This document shows, piece after piece, positions 32,858-46,900 of a stretch of 64,000 bases of DNA. The notes under the pieces were generated by a model. It saw only the letters and a list, made by a program, of their open reading frames with translations, ran no database searches and had not been told where the DNA came from. This DNA comes from Acholoe squamosa (taxonomy: Eukaryota > Annelida > Polychaeta > Phyllodocida > Polynoidae), in contig OX439047.1 of NCBI GenBank assembly GCA_949317995.1, positions 44,331,505-44,395,504 of the forward strand. The letters run 5' to 3'. Each line of letters opens with the position of its first letter. Position 1 is the stretch's first letter. The translations under genes were made by a program, and so were the position numbers.

Positions 32858-34265
32858 CCTTTCACCATTAAGCAGGTTAAAAAATCTATCTTTAAATGCA
32901 TTGAGTTGCCCGGATCTTCTATGAATATCCAGTGTTTATCAGGGATAACTTCTTTAAAAAGGTGAAGAAGAAATATTTGACACCACATAACTAACAAGTA
33001 CAGACAGTGTTCCTATAGAATTAAGGATAGTACATAACAGTTGACACTCACTTGTTTGTACTTCACAGCAGATGTGTGAAGCACTCTCACATTCTGTGTT
33101 TTCAAATTTCCCTGCAAACATCACACCCCTCACCCAGCTGGGGAGCTGCATGGACAAGGTGGCCTTTATCGCTACCTCAGAGACCCTTCTGTGAGCATCC
33201 CTTACTTGCTTACAGGCCAATCATATGATTACAGGCAACTATGTAAACTAGCAAACTGTGCTGAAACCTGACCCATCCTACTTTCACCAAATCCTTTAAG
33301 TGGTCAGAAAGGGGAGGGTTCTATCAGTTTACATAATCTAAGGGTAATCGGGAAAAGCTGGAGTTTTCAGCTTTTAGAGGGTATTTTGCAGAAAGAAGTT
33401 TCTTTCTGTTATTCATATCCTTGGAGTAGATTTCTTGGGATTTGGTTACGGTTATTCTGTCCTTGATACAATAGGTAACGTTGTATGGGTTTTAAATAGT
33501 ATTTAGCTGTCAACCTATACCCAGAACATACACAGAGGAACATTGTTATCTTTACCTATCCACAGTCACAGCCTGGGTAACAACTCTGGCACTGTGTGTT
33601 TACCATCCTTCCCATATACACTGCTGCAAACAACTACTGTTAAGCCACCACCACAACCACCTGATGTTCACCTACAACATGACCTATTTATTTCCTGCCC
33701 ATTATTACTAGTACAGATTGCTTTTCATCAGTTCAACTATATTCACCTAGTACTGTTCAATCTTCAGGTTTCTGTTGCTGTTCTTGTATTCTAGCCCTGC
33801 TATATTATATATCATGTTTCTCAGAAGTAGCTGAAGAGAAAAAAAGAAAAAGATATAAAAAGAGTAAAAGAAGGAGAAGAGATAACTATACCAATAGATC
33901 AATGATTGGAATCAGTAAAAAAGGGATAGTTCACCCAATACTAACATCAGAACTCCTAAAGTGGTAGCATAGATAGGGTCCCGCCACAGGTGCACCATGT
34001 ACAGGGTAGGCACCTTGTAGTAACAATAACACTAGTATCTACCTGGTGCAGTATGGATCCTCGCCCTGCTTTAATCCTGTCTCACGGCTGGGTGGTGAGC
34101 TGGCGGCATTTACACCTGCCACAGGTGAGATGACACCTGGCAATCTGCCTACACAGGGTCTGGGATCTCCCAGGGAGGCCAAGCGTCCTGCACTGTCAAG
34201 TCTGGCTTTTCACATCTATGTAGGTACTGCAAGGATGTTAAAGGTATATTCCACCATCTATTTCA

Positions 34266-34279
34266 TCGCCACCTGGTGG
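34266..34279 (-). promoter_or_regulatory. CTCF-like motif
   Basis: TCGCCACCTGGTGG matches the reverse complement of the CTCF core at 13 of 14 positions. Confidence 0.4.
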
Positions 34280-34845
34280 CCAAAAAATGGAAACTACCTA
34301 ATTTTGCCTAAACATATGATATATGCTCATTTCCCTTTTGTATATGCCCTAACTCATCACTATCAAGCAGACTTTTCTTACCATGGCACTAAGATTTAAT
34401 ACTGGCCAACTTCATAGATTTCTATAGTTGAGGAAAAAGATTTTTTCATAAATCTGTAGCTTCTAGATTCTGCCAGTAATCTTTCAATTCGTTGCTCATA
34501 AAGTGTTCATAATGATTGTATCTTAATCCAGACAGTTTCACTCATGTGGTGAGAAATGTCAGAAATTACAATACTTTTCATTTCCACTTTTTTCTTTGAA
34601 TTATTCATGGCTCTTTTGTTTGTCCAATGACTACCTGTTTTTATTGCTTGATCATGGTACAGATGATATCTACTGGAACTATGAGAAGTTTGATTAAGAT
34701 ATCAATGGTCAATTTTTCAATATTTAAGAAAATGTTGGAAAATGGAGACCATGTTTTTTATTGCTTCATCCACCTCATAATACATACAACTAATATGATC
34801 CCAAGTGCACAGAAAACATGCCGCCGCCTAAAACTCGTCAATACA

Positions 34846-34890
34846 GATGAGTTTAGGGTGGTCAAGGTCAAATTACCACCTAAACTCATC
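34846..34890. repeat. Inverted repeat in a hairpin-rich tract (34.82-34.99 kb)
   Basis: GATGAGTTTAGGGTGGT (34846-34862) pairs with ACCACCTAAACTCATC (34875-34890) with one extra base. The following 100 bp carry GACGACTTAGGTGGTC, GACGACCTAAAGTCGTC and AGTCGTC words, so the tract to about 34995 can fold repeatedly. It ends with TGCAGTG, like the termini of the element at 22.6 kb, but no matching left end was found. Confidence 0.5.
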
Positions 34891-35930
34891 ATACTGACAA
34901 TGGAAAGTTGTCATACTGACGACTTAGGTGGTCAGGAAGACGACCTAAAGTCGTCAATTTGACAACCTAAAGCTGTAGTCGTCTGCAGTGACAAGTTTCG
35001 TGCTTCTCAGTTTTTCAGTGTGATTTGGAGAAACTGCTGGTAGTTTAGGATTTACCGAATAGGGGTATATACCTTTAAGGGTTGTTCTTGTAACTAAACT
35101 AAGATGTAGAAGTCTGACTAGTCCTTTGCATGTTACCTGAAGTAGGATTGAACCAAGCATGGGGCATAAAACATAATCTCGACAGAGTATCTAACTGGAA
35201 TTTAGATAATGATCTGTGGAGGCTGATCGTTTTCTATGATGTCAATTGGCTACCATATAACTAAACGTGTACATTTGTAAGTAGATCTGCAGTAGCTAAC
35301 TGCCTTTGATGCTTTATCAGTGTCAGAACTGGTCACACATTCATCAGCCCATTGTCAGCACAAATCAAAGTTCCTTTGGTCTCGGTATCTCCAAGGTAGG
35401 ACAGAAGATATGAATGAACCTGACTCATTGAGGCATAACTCTGTAATAAAGAGATAACCAGATCTGACCATATCAGGTTACACCTGTACCCCCCTGTGTG
35501 CCTCATCTACAAGAGTATAGACCTCCCCTACAAGGACAGGTAAGGGTATCACTAAGTCCCAACCCAAATTGACAGCAGGAGTAGGGGGTATGTGGAGGAG
35601 TGATAGGGAGGGATAGAATGATACCTGTCGTGGCTGATCAGAAAGAAATGGATCTTACCCCGTGGGAGTCCCCTACTTCTGTCAGTTCTTTTCACTTAAA
35701 GCAACATGAATCTTTGTCAATGGTAAATTTGGATGGGGTAAAAAGAAAAGATGGAAAAAGAAGCACACAATTCTTAATAATGTTGACGGTCAGGAGGGTA
35801 GAGGGTTGGATATTTGGCTGTGTGATGATTGGAGAGTTTGGGATGGATCTGAGTCTGTGGGAGGTGTGTCAGGGCTATAGTAAAGGGGGATGAAGGAACT
35901 ATCCTCCATTAGGACGAGGGGGAATATAAT

Positions 35931-36181: not shown

Positions 36182-38361
36182 AAATTGAGCTACGACGTGT
36201 CCGCAAAGAAAATAAGATGTTGAGATACCGCCTTCAACTGTCGGAGAATGCACGGAGGACTGAGGCAAAGATGTTCTCACACAAAGTGATCGAGGGAAAC
36301 AACAAAAAAACAAGGTGTCTATTGTTATGTTTGGATCCTTGACGACAATTAGATTTCACATTTCTATCACTAGAAGGATACAGTCATGACAAAATACTGA
36401 GGCTCTAGAAGTGATAGGATGTGAGAACTGTACAATTAACTATGAAAAATCGAGCCCCAACTGTGCCTTATAGCTTTTCTTTCAACTCAGGGTGCACCTT
36501 ATACGCAGGAGATTCCATACAAATCTGGACACTATTGGTTTTAATATTGTACCTCACTTACCTGTTTTTCAGACAGTATACGGGATTCCCCACATGGAAA
36601 TGCTTCATAACAATATTCGAGAGACTTATCAAACCTAAAGCAAAGCTGATAGCCACCAGCCACAAGGCAGGGAGTCAGAAGTGGCACCAGGCATCATACA
36701 ACTCTAAGCCTGGACCAAAGCGACCATTAGAACTAGTCAACGAATTCCTCATGGTTATGATGAGGTTGCGCTTAGACCTCCTGGAGATGGATCTTGCAGA
36801 CAGGTTTGGTATATCAGAAAGCCAAGTGTCCCGAATCCTAGGACATTGGTTACCATGTCTTGCAAAGTGTCTTCGCAAGTGTTTGAAGACTCCGAGTAAG
36901 GAGGTGGTAAGTAACAAATCTCATGTCATGAAATTTGCTTTTGTAGTTATTGCAGACTTCACACCAGCCCGTGACCAAAAGATTTTGTTTTTGTAGGCTC
37001 ATAATTATTAGATACATTTTAGATATTTCTGAAGTGCTCTGAGCACTAATCATGTCGAACCTGGTACCAAATTCTCTGATTGTAGTTTTACAATATGGAC
37101 TTAGTCAGGATTCAAACCACAATTCTCCAATTTACATTTCCCTTACTGGTGTAACACTCATAGCTAGGTCTTGATAGGTCTCTAAATGGCAATACGTTTA
37201 CTTCTAGGTGCAGGCACATCTGCCAAATTCCTTCAAGCCCTACCGGAAAACCAGAGCAATAATCGATTGTTTTGAGGTGTTTATTGAACGTCCAACCAGG
37301 TTAGAACCTAGACAACAGACGTGGAGCACTTACAAACATCATAACACTGTAAAACTTCTTCTTGGGATCACTCCAGCAGGGGCAATATCATTTCTGTCAG
37401 AAGCATGGGGTGGCAGGACGTCTGACAAACACATCACAAAACACTCAGGTAAATCTATAGTTTTGCAGGAGTGCATCTTGCCATTGGTCGTCATGATGCA
37501 CCAATGAAGTGCTGATGAGTCTGCTTGCCAGCACTTCATTGTAGCATCATTCCGACCCTCCTGTTGATTTATCAACCTGAGGGTAGACCCTAGACAGAGC
37601 ACTGGGAAGGTATATAGGGGTCATAGGTAAATTTTTCCATACAAGCTGTGGCCAGTATGAGATCCAGACCCAGTTTGGTGGAGGGAGTTTGTGGGCAGGG
37701 GTTAGATCTGACATATATTTTTTCTCAGAGGGAGGTCCGAGGGCCCCTAGGAAAGAAAGTTATACCATTTCGTTATATATTTTTTGGACGAAATTCCATG
37801 AAATCAGGGTGCGGCCCTTTTTTAGGATGCGGTTTACACATGAGAATTTACAGTATACAATAGTCAACGTAATAAGGACCTGGGCACCTAAAAGAAAAAA
37901 GGGGAGGGGCACTTATTGGGGGGGGGGCACTTATTAAATCGAATATGGTATTGCTAGGTTTGCTGTAGGGCAGGCTGGTATGGTATTACTGTACTTTTCT
38001 AACTAAAACCCTTGCTAATTGTAACATTATGCATATTACAGGATTCCTTCAGACATTAGATCCCTATGACGAAGTCATGGCAGACCGGGGCTTTACAATA
38101 GGTGCAGAACTGGCCCAACAAATGTGCACCCTCAACATGCCACCATTCACCAATGGCAAGTCTCAGCTAGACCCTGTTGACGTTGAGAGACACAGGAAGG
38201 TGTCGAGCTTGCGCATTCATGTTGAGCGGGCCATCCAGAGAGTCAAGGTTTTCAAGATCTTACATGGCATCTACCCCTTAAATCAAATCCAGCACATTGA
38301 TGATGTTCTTACCATCTGTGCAGCAGTGGTGAATCTATGGCCACCAATTGTAAAAAAATGA
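36182..38361 (+). CDS. ISL2EU-like DDE_Tnp_4 transposase, 5' end not found
   Basis: Cut-and-paste DNA transposase, expected to bind the element's ends and catalyse strand cleavage and transfer in the nucleus. I read four exons: 36182-36314, 36573-36906, 37208-37448 and 38042-38361 (stop TGA). All have AG acceptors and GT donors, and their phases agree, giving 342 visible residues. Exon 1 is a charged, coiled-coil-like stretch rich in R, K and E. Exon 2 carries the family motif YTGFPTW and then a Tnp_4 helix-turn-helix (visible residues about 93-140, [11 protein letters not shown]). Exons 3 and 4 carry the DDE catalytic domain: D176 in [14 protein letters not shown]251 in VMADRGF, and E298 in [12 protein letters not shown]. 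All three catalytic acids are present and I see no frameshift or stop. Exon 1 enters in mid-codon, so at least one 5' exon is missing from this model; a THAP zinc finger is usual in relatives, but I did not find one. The donor after exon 1 (GTGTCT) is weak. The gene converges with the YqaJ nuclease gene. Confidence 0.88.
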
Positions 38362-38546
38362 AAACTGATGTATGCATAGCGATGTTATGTAAACTTGGGG
38401 CACTCCAAAAGGAAATTATAGAAGCTGGGACAACTGCATTGAAAATGGCTGTCAGTTGAATATGTCCTTTACAGTATCCGAGCATGGGCAACTTTGCGAT
38501 TTCTGGTATCTTTACTTTTAAACTACAAACACATGGTCCTTCATTG

Positions 38547-38925
38547 TTTCCCAAACTTTATTGCTGTAAGCATGTGTCAACTTATAAATGCGATTCATTA
38601 TAATGAAGAGAATTTGAACTCATAACATTACATACAAATATTACCACCACAGGTATACTTTCAGTGAACAGGTACATAAATAAATATATCACAGTTGGAC
38701 ATTCTCCCTATAATGGAGCAAATACTTTCATCATACTGTTTGTCAAACTTTATTGCTAAAAGCATGTGGCTAGAACACGTGGTTTGTTATTCTGAAGGGA
38801 ATCATGACACAAATTTGACCTCATCACCTAACATACAAATATGAGCTCCACGTATTCACATTTATTGGACAGGTACATAACAGATACATAATAGATACAT
38901 CACAGTTAATTATTCTCCCTGCAAA
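38547..38925 (-). repeat. Diverged tandem duplication of the nuclease 3' tail with two poly(A) signals
   Basis: Two units of about 180 bp (roughly 38547-38730 and 38738-38925) can be aligned by eye. Both share CAAACTTTATTGCT near one end, ACATACAAATAT in the middle, ACAGGTACATAA, then ATCACAGTT and ATTCTCCCT. Read on the minus strand, TTTATT at 38749-38754 and at 38557-38562 are AATAAA poly(A) signals just downstream of the nuclease stop. On the plus strand, AATAAA lies near 38676 and could serve the transposase transcript. Confidence 0.7.
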
Positions 38926-38930
38926 AGCAT

Positions 38931-41900
38931 TTATGCTTTTGCCGTCCTCTTCTTCTTTTTTTTCTTTGGGGGTGGCTGAAGATCATCAACTGTGGATGTC
39001 TCGCCACACAATCTAGGCAGTAGATGTTGAACATAGAACCTGTCTAAACAGTCTTTGACACCATACCAGTAGTCAACATCAAATGTAACAGGATCCACGT
39101 GTATACCCTCTGGAGTCCAAACTACAAAGTCACACCACTCAACTTCCAGTAGAGCCATTTGCCCCTGTATCTGTGTGTAATACTCATGTGATTTCTTCAA
39201 GTGACCTTCAGCATCTAGGTAGGGGATAAGGCCACGTTCAAGAGCCTCTAGTGGTTTTAGATTCTTCAGTGCCGCTGTGTATGCACATTTTACCTCGATC
39301 AGTCGTTCACCACAACAGCTGCAGCTAGCGTAACGATCAGGAGTTGCTCCTATGTGGGCATCCCCTGAAAATAATATTGAGAGTTATTAGAAACAAGGGC
39401 TCTCAAAGAGCTGTTTTGCATTCAGATATTTTGGATCATGTAGCATTTTATCATGTAATATACACTCTCTCAGTTAAATTGTTAGTGTTTCTATATTTGT
39501 GACACGATCTGTGAAAAGGGGGCTTAGTGCAAAGGGTTCTAAGACCCGTTCTCCAAGTCTGTGTCACATTTATTGTCATACATGCATACGTCTCAAGTTG
39601 TTGATATTTTATACTGATGTACATAGTTCAGTCAAGCATGTATTGTATTTAAGAAAAATCAAATACCTGGTGGAATCTTTATCCCACATCTTCCAACAAT
39701 CAAGTCATCACAGACCGAGATCTTAATGTAGTCTCTTATCGCATCACCCTCATGGTCATTTCCATACTTGATTGCTGGTACCTTACTCAGATCTCGTGAT
39801 GGCCCAATAAGGTCATTCAGTAGTGTAGCACTCGGAGTTTTTACTCTAGTTGATGTCATGAAGCTGCAATATGAAAGGATAAGAATAAAGTTACTGTAGT
39901 CTGCTTAAATGGACACATTCGATGCAATTTACTACGAATTTGGTATTGATATATTTATGACTAGAAAACATTGTTTGTTCATTGAACTCAATAAAAGTTG
40001 TTTTTATAGATGTATCCTTTGTTTTCATGTATTAAGCTATTCACCACAAGATATATCCTCACCTGAAAACTTTTCCCATTTTGGAGGCTGTGATACGGTT
40101 CTCGCGTACCTGCAGCCAATGTGCATTCTGATGCTGCTCCTTAGTGGAGTCCATAATGAGCTGACTCTGTTCAACAGAGACAGATGTTCGAATGATCTCA
40201 AACAGCTCATCGCTTGAAGATGAATCTTCTATGATCTGCATAATGCTATCTGGTAGTGTGGGTAGGGTTGTCTCTGAGTCATCATAGAAGTCACCGAAGA
40301 ACACCTCAGCTGTGTCATCATCTGGGCAAAAGAAAAAATAACTAAATTTATATTACATGCTTGTATGATGTTGAAAGATCATTGAACGATTTGATTTCCA
40401 TCAGGGCTTGTTATCCAGACCTACAGATTTACAAATCTACTAATATATTTAAATTTTGTTAAACAAACTCCTTGGGGATGTCAAAACTATGACGAATTTC
40501 ATTGTATCTGAACAGGGACATTCACCCCCCTCCCCTATCAACACAATTTACCAGGGGGTAGTTACGAAGCACTGTCACAAGTCATTCTAATGTTCCCCCT
40601 ACCCCAGTCAACAGAAAACATTGCAAAACGTCAGAATGTTTCCCTATGGCTCCTTATCACTACTCATGGCAAAACGTTTTAAAATGTAAAAAATGTTTTT
40701 TTGATGTTAAATAACTATTTTTTGGTTGAGTGGGACCCCTACACTAGGGACTAGGGATGTGCATAGGTAGTGAGTACTGCCTGACATTACATTAGAACTT
40801 CCATGTAGCCCATAGCATTTTTAATTGCAAGTCTAAGGCGTACATACCTTTGTCAATAGATACTTCATAGCCATAGAGGAGGAGGGCTGCACAGTTTGGT
40901 GCTGCATCTGCTAGGATGTCTGCAAATTCCGCATCAGTACAACTGCTACTGCTACAGCTCCGTTTCCTAGTTGGTCTACTTCTCTTCCAGTCCTAAAAGT
41001 CAAAAAGTATCTTGTCTGTACAATTCTAGCTTTAAATTGCCCTTGAAACTCAAATCAATGTTCAATCATTGTATATTGTATGAATAGATTGAAAATCACG
41101 TTTACCTGTTATATCATATTGAAATCAAACATGGGAGACTGATGAATATTGAGTAAATGGTGGCACAAAATGGGGATATGGAATATGCAAGTATACATGT
41201 TAGTTAATACATGTTATACATGCTAGCCAATACAATTTCTCAAAAGCAAATTTAGATAATCAGTTGAAAATATCTAGGTTGAAATAGTTGATTATTACCT
41301 TGTTTACCCTGGGTTTTCGGAAGTTCATCTTCTTGACAACCTCAGCTATGACCTCTTTACAGAAAGCTTGGTTCCATTGACATGCTACAGATGTGCATGC
41401 ATCTGGAAGGTTTAACCCCAGCTCAGATGCTCCCATCATTTTAAATAGAATACCACCAATGTGGCTGCACACCTCACCCAGGCTGAAATGAAATGGAAGA
41501 TTATCAAAATAAAATAAACTTATCAATGTAGTGGTTTTAGTGGATAACAATAGAAATTAATTAAACTTTTGAAAGGCAAGCTGTTAGGAACTATGATTTA
41601 CTACCCTGACATTGTATTCTACCGGGTAAATGTATCTATATCATAATTGTTCATTAAGCTCATTTCATGTATCTGGAACTTTCTCTAAAATTCCAAAATT
41701 AAGATGAAATCAATAAAATAAATGTAGATACACAGTTTACTCACCCTGCAGTGCATGTGCACCTTCCAGCTTCAATTGTCCCACAAACATGAACCATCAC
41801 CCACGCCTCATAGGGAGCTGATGTGTGTTGCGATGGTTTGACTTTGGCTTTGATGAAAGTAATATCAGGAGATGCCTGGTAGATATTGAGTTCCTGAACC

Positions 41901-44341
41901 CAGCCACTGACAGCATAGTTGTACGATTCCAAACTTTTGTAGGCTTTGAGTTGTTGTACAGTGATCCCTGTGAAGGAAACAAAGAGATAAATGCAATTGA
42001 TCAATTGAATATATATGTGCATGTATAGGCCTAACATTCCACAGTGTTGACAATGATGTAAAAGTAGTCCCTGTCTTGCTCTCTACATACCACATCCACC
42101 AGCATGAATGACAGAACCCTCTGTTCATCAGAAATTGTGATATGCACCAAGCTTATTATCCTGGACCATCAATATCACAAATGTCAGAATGTAAGAAAAA
42201 CATAATGACTCTATTGTCTAGACTTTGTTTGAAATAATCATGACTACAAGTGCAATCAAGTAGAAGACCCACCTCCTTGGATCATTATGACATGGACATC
42301 TATCTAAACTGTTAAGAAGTGAGAGTGTACCAGAAAGTATGCTCTTGGGGAATTCATAATCAAACCCTAAAAATGCCTAAAAAGTCATAATTTTAGAATG
42401 GTCCTGACAATGTAGCACTCATATGTATACAACTATGGACAGGTACTAATTTGCTAAAAAAAGGATGACACATTCCCCTGGCATTCCCCACGACACAATA
42501 GTGCTTAGAAAGATATCAGTGTGTTCTTAGAAGTGTTTCACTGTGATCTATAATAATCTTCCAACCTGTTTTGGCTTATTTTCGGTATTAGTTCAAATTC
42601 CAAAAGTTATATTCTAGGCCAACTAGCACCTACCTGGTGAGTTGATTAGGTAGTTGTATATATCAGCATACATGACTGATGGCATCAACTTTAGATCAGG
42701 CACCCAATCGCTGATGTCTTTCGGGTTGGGCAAAACCTTGTCTCCTCGGGACAAGATGTCTTGCAAGCGCTCAGCTGCTCTTTTCTGTGTTGTCACCTCG
42801 TCAGGATTCACCGGCACTGCTAGCTTCCAAGTGAAGTAAGCTATCCTGACGAGATCTGCCTTATTAGCCTCACCCGAACGTACCCCTCTGAGGCCCAGCC
42901 ATGTTCTCAGCTGTGACACTGTCCAGGTCTGCAGAAGATATGATACAGTTTAATATATTTAAACACATATTCTAACATACTGAAAATAAGCACTTGGCTT
43001 TAAAAAATGTATTTTCAACATTTGCAAACTTTTTATTGGGTTTGGATTTAAACAATGTTTGCAAAAAATTGTTTTATGACATACTAAGAATTTTTACAAA
43101 CTAAATAAAAATGCTTGTTTCAACTTTTTTTTCAACCAAAAAAAGTTATGTTTCTTTCATGTTACAGAAAACGTGTTTACCTCAAAATAATCTCATTTCT
43201 GGGTAGAGACTAGGTTGGCGCTAGCAGTTCGCCAAATCGCCAATGGCGAATTAAAGTGCATTTTGGCTAATAAAAAACCAAAAATATTCGCCAAATTGGC
43301 AAATTTTGAAGGCCAACTGTGTATATGCTAGGGTCAGATCATATTAACCCCCTAGTGATGTTTAATTAACAATAAAACGACCTCATCTTAGGGAGTGGTC
43401 ATTATTTATCAACAGGGGGGGGTGGTGGGTTTTCGCGCGGACGCGCGGGAATTTTTTACGCCCCCCTCGACGGCAGTCAAAATTTTTTGTGCCCCCCGCG
43501 CCCGAGGCGCGGAGAGTTTTCGCGCCCCTCTTTGATCTATAGCAGCGCGCAGGCTTTTTTGCTAAAAAGAGGGTGAATTTTTTTTGCCCCCCCCTCAAGA
43601 GGGGTCAAAATTTTTTTATCCCCCCCCTCGGGAGGGGTCTGAAAATTTTACGCCCCCCCTCAAACTCACCCTCCCCCCCCTGTTGATAAATAATGACCAC
43701 TCCCTTACTCCCTAATATAGTTGTGTATTCACATAGGATATTTACTTTGTTTCTATTTTGACACATTTGATTGAAATGGACTCCAAATAACATACAAAAC
43801 CTTAATCACAAATGTTTTCTTGATAGGAATGGTTGAACCTCTGATCATGAATAGGTTTGCTTGAATTATAATTGTAACACTCTTTTATTAAGGCAATTAG
43901 GTCCAGATAAGGTAAGGTGAACCATAAGGATATTGCTACTGAATCTTTTTCAGAAAATTTCCTAAATGAAATCTATCTATAGATCAACTTTTTATTAGGC
44001 GTGGCCTTAGTGAGAAGGACATGGGAAAACACCTAGAAATATATATACATGTGATATTTTCTAAAGTCGTTTTTAAGATGGGACCTCCTAGCTAGACCCC
44101 TTTCCACCATAAGTCCTGTAAACCATTGAATCAAGAGAGTGGTTTCATTATATCTTAATTCTCACAACAGTAGGAGTTCAAATATTTCCTTGAACCATGC
44201 AGATAAATAGTACTAGCCTGCCAAAGTAAATGGAATCTGGAGTTTACATACCTTAAGCTTCTTCCAAGCTGCGTCTTCAAAAGGAGGCTGTACTTGCTGG
44301 AGCTCAGCACTGTTAGAAACAAAGTTGTGATCTGCACTCAT
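38931..44341 (-). CDS. SAP-SWIM-YqaJ exonuclease of an ISL2EU-like transposon
   Basis: YqaJ-family (lambda-exonuclease-like, PD-(D/E)XK) nuclease, the usual companion of ISL2EU transposases; its job in transposition is not settled. Eight exons on the minus strand: 44341-44252, 42928-42634, 41967-41745, 41482-41299, 40992-40848, 40321-40063, 39863-39667 and 39364-38931. All introns are GT-AG, all phases match, and the spliced frame is 1827 nt (608 residues plus TAA). A SAP-like DNA-binding helix pair occupies about residues 31-66 (VSQLRTWLGLRGV). A SWIM zinc finger uses C198, C200, C208 and H210. The nuclease core has RITASKMG at 388-395, YGNDHE with E437, GATPDR with D474, IEVK with E488 and K490, and YYTQIQGQM at 526-534, so every expected catalytic residue is present. 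The C-terminus is a lysine-rich tail (PPPKKKKKKRTAKA) that could be a nuclear localisation signal. The start was chosen because exon 1 opens with ATG and ends at a perfect AAG/GTATGT donor. Exon 1 is the least certain part. Confidence 0.92.
43391..43704. mobile_element. Harbinger-type MITE, copy 3, nested in nuclease intron 1
   Basis: A 314-bp element flanked by TTA (43388-43390 and 43705-43707). Its termini are an inverted repeat beginning GGGAGTGGTCATTATTTATC. The interior is C- and G-rich, with CGCG-rich blocks and repeated CCCCCC(T)C / AAAATTTTT segments. A 3-bp TWA target duplication is characteristic of PIF/Harbinger elements. It sits between exons 1 and 2 of the YqaJ gene (intron 42929-44251), so it landed after the larger element, or was carried by it. 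It encodes nothing convincing. Confidence 0.85.
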
Positions 44342-45402
44342 GGTGGTTGCAATGTATCTGAATCACTTGGGAATTAAGCCATGCTTTAAATGGGCATTTA
44401 CTGAACTGCTCAACACGTGTTAAGCAGTTCATGTAGACTGAAAAGCTCGAAACATGGAGTTGCCACACACAGGTGAACTGCTCTGTGGTGTGAAGTAGAG
44501 CCATACGGGTTGGCCTAGGTGTGGAGCCTTAAATGCCATCACAGTAAAACCGGGAGTTGTTCACACCCTGCTATGCAGGCTAATAGAATGTGTGACAAGC
44601 TGAACAACGTCATTGTACTACACAATATTACTTCCTAAATGTTGGAGGGGCTGGGGTTGTGGAGGGGCTTCGTCATCTTAAATTGGCAAAGTAGTCAATT
44701 AACATTTATTCATTCAATATACACGATACCTCCAACACAGTTCTCATTCACAGACATGAGGCATTGGCATCTTGTGCTATTAATAATGTCACCGGGGAGC
44801 TGTAATCCAGGCCCCCACATGTTGGTGGCTGGCCTTAATTAATGTACATTAATTTGACGGAGACCAAAGACAGTACAGTAGCACATGTCACTGAGGCCGG
44901 TGCTGACCCTCAGTGAACCGCAGGCCTCACACAATCCCGCCCCCCCTCCATAGTTCACGGACAGGGCCGGTACCAAATTAGCCCTGGAGTTGACAAGTGA
45001 AGCTATTGTTGCATCCACTTGATATACACTCAGGCTTATTTCATGTCATATGTATTTAATCTACTACTTGATATTGTGCAACTGTGAATTCTAAGTACGA
45101 TTAAGCAGTGGATTAAAGAGTCTCTGATATTCTTTTCCTGCTAAGAAACCACACCCATAAAGGGCGATAATATGTGCATGGTTATAATTTAAATTGGTAT
45201 AGATTCATAATTTTTCATTAAATATACTGCTGAGAGCACTAAAATAGTTCCTCCAGATGTTATCTTCATAATAGTGATATTCACTAAGATTGTTAAGTGA
45301 TAGTTTAATTAGAAATGCCTTTTCAATTAAACTGGATAAGTAGTGCTCCAGCCACTTTGTCCCAGAATTACCAGCGAATCTGACTTGGGGAACCAGCATG
45401 TG

Positions 45403-45476: not shown

Positions 45477-46900
45477 GCATCCTGCTTAAAGCTTATTATA
45501 TACACTGCAACCATTCAATGGGGATGGAATATTAACCTTTCAGTCCCTGCAAAATATCAGTCACCCTGTCCTTTCACTCCCTAACTCACTCCAGGTGGGA
45601 TCAGTAACAATACCTTCTCCCTAGCCACGTCTAGCCCCCTGTTCAACTGCAGGTGAGTCTTATGCTACAACCCATCACTGTGAACTTCATCATTTGAAGG
45701 TCAAATAAGCACATGACATTGAGGAGCTGTCTGAGTTAACAACTAGAAGCTTGTCTTTGCTGTGGTTAGATGCCATATGTGCTCTGACTGTATAATTACC
45801 AGGTCCTACCAATGTTTGTATAGTAATAGCATAATAATGCTTGTGAGGATACAAATTATTGTGTATTGTGCCCATTCCACCCCAACAAAAAGACAGTATT
45901 ATAATGTTTTAGACGAAGCAGGCATGGCTACATTTTCATCTTTTCTTTTAACAAGAGGTAGGCCCTCATTTAATACAAATCCGTGGTATTCCCAGATAGG
46001 ATCATCTGAATGAGGTATAGATCTCACCATGGTCTTATATAACCAGGTGTCTCAGATCATAATCAGAGCATTTTCCGTACTCTCTTTTTCCCATTTTTTC
46101 ACCTGTATAGTTACAATAACCTATGACCTTTAAGTGTATTCAATTCAATGCAGACACTATCTAAATACTGGTGTTTCACAAATAATATTCAGTGAATTGT
46201 GCATAATCATGACAAACGATGTATTCTAAGCTAGATAATTCAATTCACTCGCGAATATCAATTATAGAATCCTATCTGTATCAGATTAGCACTTGTATGT
46301 CTCATTACGTAAGTAGTTAAAGTAGGTTTTGGTTCCCATGGTGAGGCCTTGGTGTACCCTGGGGGTATTTGGTGATGATAAACCTATGTGGTAAATATCT
46401 GTACCCATAGCTTACTCCTATGGTAAAAAGAGCTGTCAGTAGGTACCCTCTTTTCAAAAGAAGTCAGGCTCTGCTTTACCATTCAAGTTGCACTCACCAC
46501 ATTAGTCTGAAAAGTCACCTGCCTTGTTAAAACAGAGAGAGCTGCACTATCAGGTACCTACTCATGTCACACACTCTATATTATATTATACTGACTGACT
46601 TCTCTCAACTATGTACCTTCTCAAATCCCCCTATTTTAGCACCATACTTGAATGTCCACTTGTGAGCAACAAAAGGGACAAGTTATAGCTACAAGAAAAG
46701 AAAGGACTGGAAACAAGGGCATTTTTAGCCAGCTCTTCCTTTTACTATAGGAGCAACACCCTACTGGTGAGTTACTCGCCAGGGCTGCATACACACATGC
46801 TGACTTCTGAATTGGCGGCATGATTCTTAAATATGGTGTTGGAAAGTAGGTCCACTATTGCTGCATTGGTGCATTATGAAGAGAAAAAAAAAATAACCAA

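Follow-up and report, generated by a model that had tools for sequence, protein, structure and literature searches.

ISL2EU elements belong to the PHIS (PIF/Harbinger-ISL2EU-Spy) superfamily and mostly encode a transposase that combines DDE, HTH and THAP domains, together with a separate YqaJ gene; they make AT target duplications, their terminal inverted repeats (TIRs) usually start with GG, and autonomous elements average about 4.84 kb, as given in one account (PMC4482050). The duplicated AT is placed in the context A-AT-T. ISL2EU has been found expressed in fish by authors who knew of no reported proof of activity (PMC9179366), and two further papers place YqaJ domains among the transposition-related genes of scallops (PMC10225492) and among the endogenous viral elements of a clam (PMC7826175). 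Here we describe a gene pair in a stretch of 64,000 nucleotides from the polychaete Acholoe squamosa (contig OX439047.1, C13:44331505-44395504 in our notation), hereafter the window, which was compared with the whole genome (1.48 Gb, 63 contigs). A sequence-only reading had proposed that the window holds an ISL2EU-type pair, and this is what we find: a DDE and HTH transposase gene lies beside a YqaJ nuclease gene, tail to tail. The same reading took the pair to be apparently intact and rare in that state, and suggested that it may be active or recently active, or else kept by selection. We consider it fairly likely that the pair instead descends from an intron-rich DNA transposon of ISL2EU type, as an old copy that can no longer move by itself and that has a complete nuclease but a truncated transposase.

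The likeness to ISL2EU lies in the pairing of a DDE and HTH transposase gene with a YqaJ exonuclease gene, and in the THAP domain carried by relatives in the same genome. However, no THAP domain, TIR or AT target duplication was detected for the window copy, whose ends were not located, and its genes occupy at least 12 exons over 8.2 kb, as opposed to the published average of about 4.84 kb for autonomous ISL2EU elements (PMC4482050). By these features the pair appears to be derived from an ISL2EU-type element rather than to be a complete member. PIF/Harbinger elements, of the same superfamily, have a related DDE transposase, but their partner gene is Myb/SANT-like (PMC4482050), whereas the partner in the window is YqaJ. 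Over the YqaJ domain there are weak sequence matches to the exonuclease 3syy (E 0.028) and to the uncharacterized protein R354 (5yet/5yeu, E 0.28-0.29). Both are counted among the Lambda-type exonucleases of the YqaJ fold; unlike them, the YqaJ domain of the window is joined to SAP/HeH-like and SWIM-type parts in an intron-bearing, transposon-derived gene.

The nuclease gene is complete. It occupies 44341-38931 on the minus strand as eight exons with GT-AG borders; spliced together, these form one open frame of 608 residues that ends in a stop, confirming the earlier exon model. Exon N1 (44252-44341) encodes residues 1-30 and carries the start codon, an ATG supported by the three relatives described below (C5:23.73M, C13:22.65M and C13:56.7M), whose MSAD... 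starts all align with codons 1-30. Intron 1 (42929-44251) holds an inverted-repeat element (43390-43705) with 36-nt inverted ends. Exon N2 (42634-42928) contains a weak SAP/HeH-like stretch, and the frame containing it matches Ish1, HeH and SAP, all below the Pfam threshold. A CxC..CxH motif, which we take to be SWIM-type, is divided between N3 (41745-41967, CxC) and N4 (41299-41482, CxH); the frame containing N4 gave no Pfam match by itself. Exon N5 (40848-40992) is a linker, and the YqaJ domain begins in N6 (40063-40321), runs through N7 (39667-39863) and ends in N8 (38931-39364), where the catalytic D, E and K, R475 and the stop are found. Residues 380-535 match Pfam YqaJ at 54.4 bits (cut-off 22), with a weaker match to the viral alkaline exonuclease (24 bits, cut-off 20). 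From the PD-(D/E)XK motif we assign E437, D474, E488, K490 and Q531 as catalytic. The nuclease alignment has 24 rows including the window, several of them pieces of a single copy, and counted over the rows aligned at each column these residues are conserved in 21/21 (E437), 20/21 (D474), 21/21 (both E488 and K490) and 22/22 (Q531). Residue 475 is R in the window alone, the 20 other aligned rows having G (15) or L (5).

The transposase gene (36182-38364, plus strand) comprises four exons and 341 codons. Exon T1 (36182-36314) is coiled-coil-like by eye; it opens within a codon, at a splice acceptor, and hence is not a first exon. T2 (36573-36906) carries HTH_Tnp_4 (58 bits in Pfam), T3 (37208-37448) the first catalytic D, and T4 (38042-38364) the second D, the E and the stop; the full DDE_Tnp_4 domain scores 165 bits. 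The catalytic D175, D250 and E297 are present, as had been read from the sequence, and are kept in all 20 alignment rows that cover the three columns, while a 21st row (C13:56.7M) spans the last two alone and keeps both. The description of the pair as intact therefore stands for the nuclease, whose exon models hold, and fails for the transposase, which lacks a 5' part with the THAP domain. This part is found in two relatives, as a THAP exon 3.7 kb upstream of T1 in C5:23.73M (Pfam 54.5 bits) and 2.2 kb upstream in C13:22.65M (38.1 bits). When both strands of the 64-kb window were searched with THAP queries from these two loci and from L009, a copy of another lineage, the best tblastn match had E 2.6. 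As a control, the same search with the C5 exon against C13:22.65M gave E 7e-23 at 48-49% identity. In the translated frames of the window, phmmer for THAP gave a best E of 0.4 and a two-sequence HMM a best E of 1.2, and a scan of the window for a short THAP motif found no THAP. Moreover, the C5 THAP exon found 10 matches in the whole genome (30/30 candidates scored), none near C13:44.37M. Since two relatives have an upstream THAP exon and none was found in the window or near it, the transposase is 5'-truncated: all that lay upstream of T1 has been lost, start codon and THAP DNA-binding domain included. The region in which the missing part of the gene would be sought holds, among other things, a dispersed element (34238-35078, plus strand) with inverted ends of ~20 nt, TTAAAGGTATAT, which has 40 long matches elsewhere, 75-86% identical, among 40 of 3797 candidates scored. 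Elsewhere in the genome, a solo THAP frame (C18:2721769-2722050, minus strand) is 50% identical to the C5 THAP exon, and the transposase search lists no match nearby.

The same architecture, whole or partial, was found at three loci, C5:23.73M, C13:22.65M and C13:56.7M. Wherever exon edges could be aligned, GT-AG borders fall at identical codons in these relatives, the N5/N6 border not being alignable, and the predicted exon boundaries are borne out to that extent. The T1 acceptor and its phase are the same in the window and C5. Both also have nuclease intron 1 at the same position, which excludes this intron as a gain specific to the window; the other two relatives, C13:22.65M and C13:56.7M, lack it. 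Exon N8 of the C5 copy contains two stops, and C13:22.65M has none in its aligned exons (580 nuclease and 338 transposase codons); some stops inside the raw genome-search matches of the window copy and C13:22.65M lie outside exons. For C13:56.7M there was no match to nuclease residues 228-398 or to transposase exons T1-T3. A tree of 21 transposase rows groups the window with its three relatives in one clade (support 1.0), within which the window pairs with C5 (0.966). Protein identity between these two is 0.67 for the nuclease (574 codons) and 0.73 for the transposase (336 codons). Silent sites are saturated, with a divergence of 2.5 in the nuclease and a value that could not be computed in the transposase. 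Copies more than 95% identical to the window pair were not found, the nearest found being 67-73% identical in protein. A transposase search of the genome gave 63 places, of which four belong to the window itself; outside the window the top matches (82%, 69% and 63%) fall in three C5 exons, and the others range over 24-64%. A partial fifth relative lies at C4:61537070-61537994 (transposase piece 57% and nuclease piece 37% identical).

No credible TIRs were found around the window pair in a 16-mer scan of about 10 kb by 10 kb, from which TIRs of 6 bp could escape. The best candidate (31449/46500), flanked by AAT/ATT, was rejected: the match continues past the supposed junction, and its right arm lies inside a dispersed repeat (46412-46770), whose listed matches are mostly 91-96% identical, a few of them 75-87%. 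None of the candidate TIR pairs of the relatives, 5 at C13:22.65M and 26 at C5, was convincing. Beyond the locus, the window flanks match dispersed repeats, apart from a single match of 85 nt that falls in CT-rich sequence of the left flank. Termini common to the window flanks and other copies were absent from the scored matches (40/3797 and 40/1671), among which a weaker shared end could escape. Upstream of the nuclease, 61-90 nt from its ATG, lies a palindrome, TGAACTGCTCAACACGTGTTAAGCAGTTCA (44402-44431), which may be a promoter or terminal motif. A similar 30-nt palindrome stands at the corresponding place in C5 (25/30 positions, counted by eye); C13:56.7M has one half-site and C13:22.65M none. 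The motif TGAACTGCT occurs three times directly upstream of the nuclease start (44402-44482) and twice elsewhere in the 64 kb, and is also found upstream of the nuclease in two of the three relatives. Among the other stop-free frames of at least 95 codons in the window, none looked like a known gene by eye, a family scan of them not having been made.

We favour an old, truncated copy because no THAP domain, no close copy and no credible ends were found, and regard the pair as probably a remnant that has been conserved, not an active element. Four observations weigh against this. The element ends were not located, and a short or degenerate TIR may have escaped; an in-frame ATG within T1 could start a THAP-less protein; the nuclease has no excess of private changes in the window; and there are 0 stops and 0 frameshifts across 949 codons. 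In a neutral simulation (substitutions only) both genes were stop-free in 29/1000 runs at 3% divergence and in 4/1000 at 5%. It follows that function was lost recently, or else that one gene or both remain in use.

Codon models were fitted to a four-locus tree for the nuclease (571 codons, gaps of C13:56.7M treated as missing) and to three loci for the transposase (336 codons). Omega on the window branch was 0.099 for the nuclease, where omega = 1 costs 9.4 log units (2*dlnL 18.9), and 0.052 for the transposase, where it costs 2.9 log units (2*dlnL 5.8); these values are rough, as a single common omega fits nearly equally well and branch lengths are saturated, one being at its bound. The window branch has been under purifying selection since its split from the nearest copy. 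This may reflect a mobile past, use in place or both, for which omega would be the same. The earlier suggestion that the pair is kept by selection holds to this extent: the codons were constrained, and selection during a mobile phase is indistinguishable from selection in place. Private changes were counted at 428 nuclease sites conserved in the other three loci (window 21, C5 29, C13:22.65M 17, C13:56.7M 20) and at 336 transposase sites, scored where the two others agree (window 30, C5 21, C13:22.65M 67). The transposase tip of the window is also longer than that of C5 (0.203 vs 0.083), which would fit some relaxation of the transposase and is evidence against both genes having been strictly maintained.

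One alternative is co-domestication, in which the host would have kept a THAP-less DDE/HTH protein and a SWIM-YqaJ nuclease together, in place, as cellular genes. Complete and conserved frames and splice sites, with no stop in the 949 codons, speak for it, as do the low omega of both genes on the window branch, the missing THAP domain and ends, and the palindrome common to the window and C5. Purifying selection on coding sequence, as in domesticated genes, is indeed observed, but is not specific to domestication, as selection while mobile yields the same omega. Moreover, the three sister loci keep the tail-to-tail two-gene layout, one of them in part, and two retain THAP; the two stops in N8 of C5 show that the lineage was not uniformly kept, and the longer window transposase tip does not favour retention of both genes. 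We regard co-domestication as unlikely; the window pair is ordinary in kind, with joint domestication a minor possibility.

Less probable again, and in our view doubtful, is a complete element with first exons that are located beyond the window or have diverged past recognition. The T1 acceptor and phase match those of C5, and the exons between THAP and T1 differ strongly even among relatives. However, the 36 kb upstream of T1 were searched on both strands by a procedure that readily detects THAP exons 48-49% identical between relatives, and the genome search with the C5 THAP exon found none near the locus. The active or recently active element first proposed is very improbable, for although the catalytic D, D and E and the nuclease residues are present, no THAP exon, no recognisable ends and no near-identical copy (67-73% protein identity at best) were found for the window pair, and the signature of recent movement sits in a different lineage, L009/L010.

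Nor are pairs without stops rare in this genome. Genome-wide, 43 YqaJ places were found, 36 of them without a stop in the matched stretch; the window YqaJ, being split by introns, is not counted in the 43. A transposase match lies within 10 kb of 31/43, tail to tail in 29/31, and 23/31 of these pairs have no stop in either matched stretch. This count is mechanical: it sets a minimum for the number of places and does not fully test whether pairs are intact, and some matched stretches enter introns. The two pairs on the same strand (C2:61088025-61095787 and C14:26984663-26991920) have their genes ~6 kb apart. Two copies of the other lineage, at C14:4.97M and C16:23.95M (L009:331-7893 and L010:1967-9529), are 99.97% identical over 7563 nt, and their flanks did not align with each other. 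They contain a THAP exon, a DDE transposase and a YqaJ nuclease, with ACACCCCTTG at both ends, and a third copy (C13:15.22M) is 96-97% identical to them in the three longest blocks. No clearly delimited target duplication was found in this young family (L009-L011); by sequence identity and unaligned flanks, the L009/L010 lineage nevertheless shows a signature of recent movement. In other ISL2EU-type lineages a PHD finger ends the YqaJ frame, at 31.5 bits in L026:2310-3740 (minus strand; Pfam cut-off 24) and below the cut-off (17.4-22.7 bits) in L009:4492-5604 (minus strand), L013:4072-6138 and L025:2-1447. The window nuclease gave no PHD finger in the Pfam search, and the term did not occur in the two papers mentioning ISL2EU among those listed (10/127) by a literature search.

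By analogy with the families concerned, binding of the ends of a complete element would fall to its THAP and HTH domains, cutting and joining to the DDE domain, and the processing of DNA ends or help with repair to the YqaJ nuclease. The window copy as it stands is probably incapable of such transposition. Its open frames would be best accounted for by prolonged purifying selection during the mobile phase of the lineage, truncation and loss of the ends coming late, and the nuclease is possibly still expressed. What had been read as an intact active element is thus corrected to a truncated relic with a complete nuclease. Recent ISL2EU mobility can be tested in the L009/L010 lineage, whose copies lie on different chromosomes, rather than at the window pair. 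The window pair and its relatives represent a deep, intron-rich ISL2EU-type subfamily and, if orthologues of the pair were shown in other species, this would be an instance in which a transposase had been kept together with its accessory nuclease.

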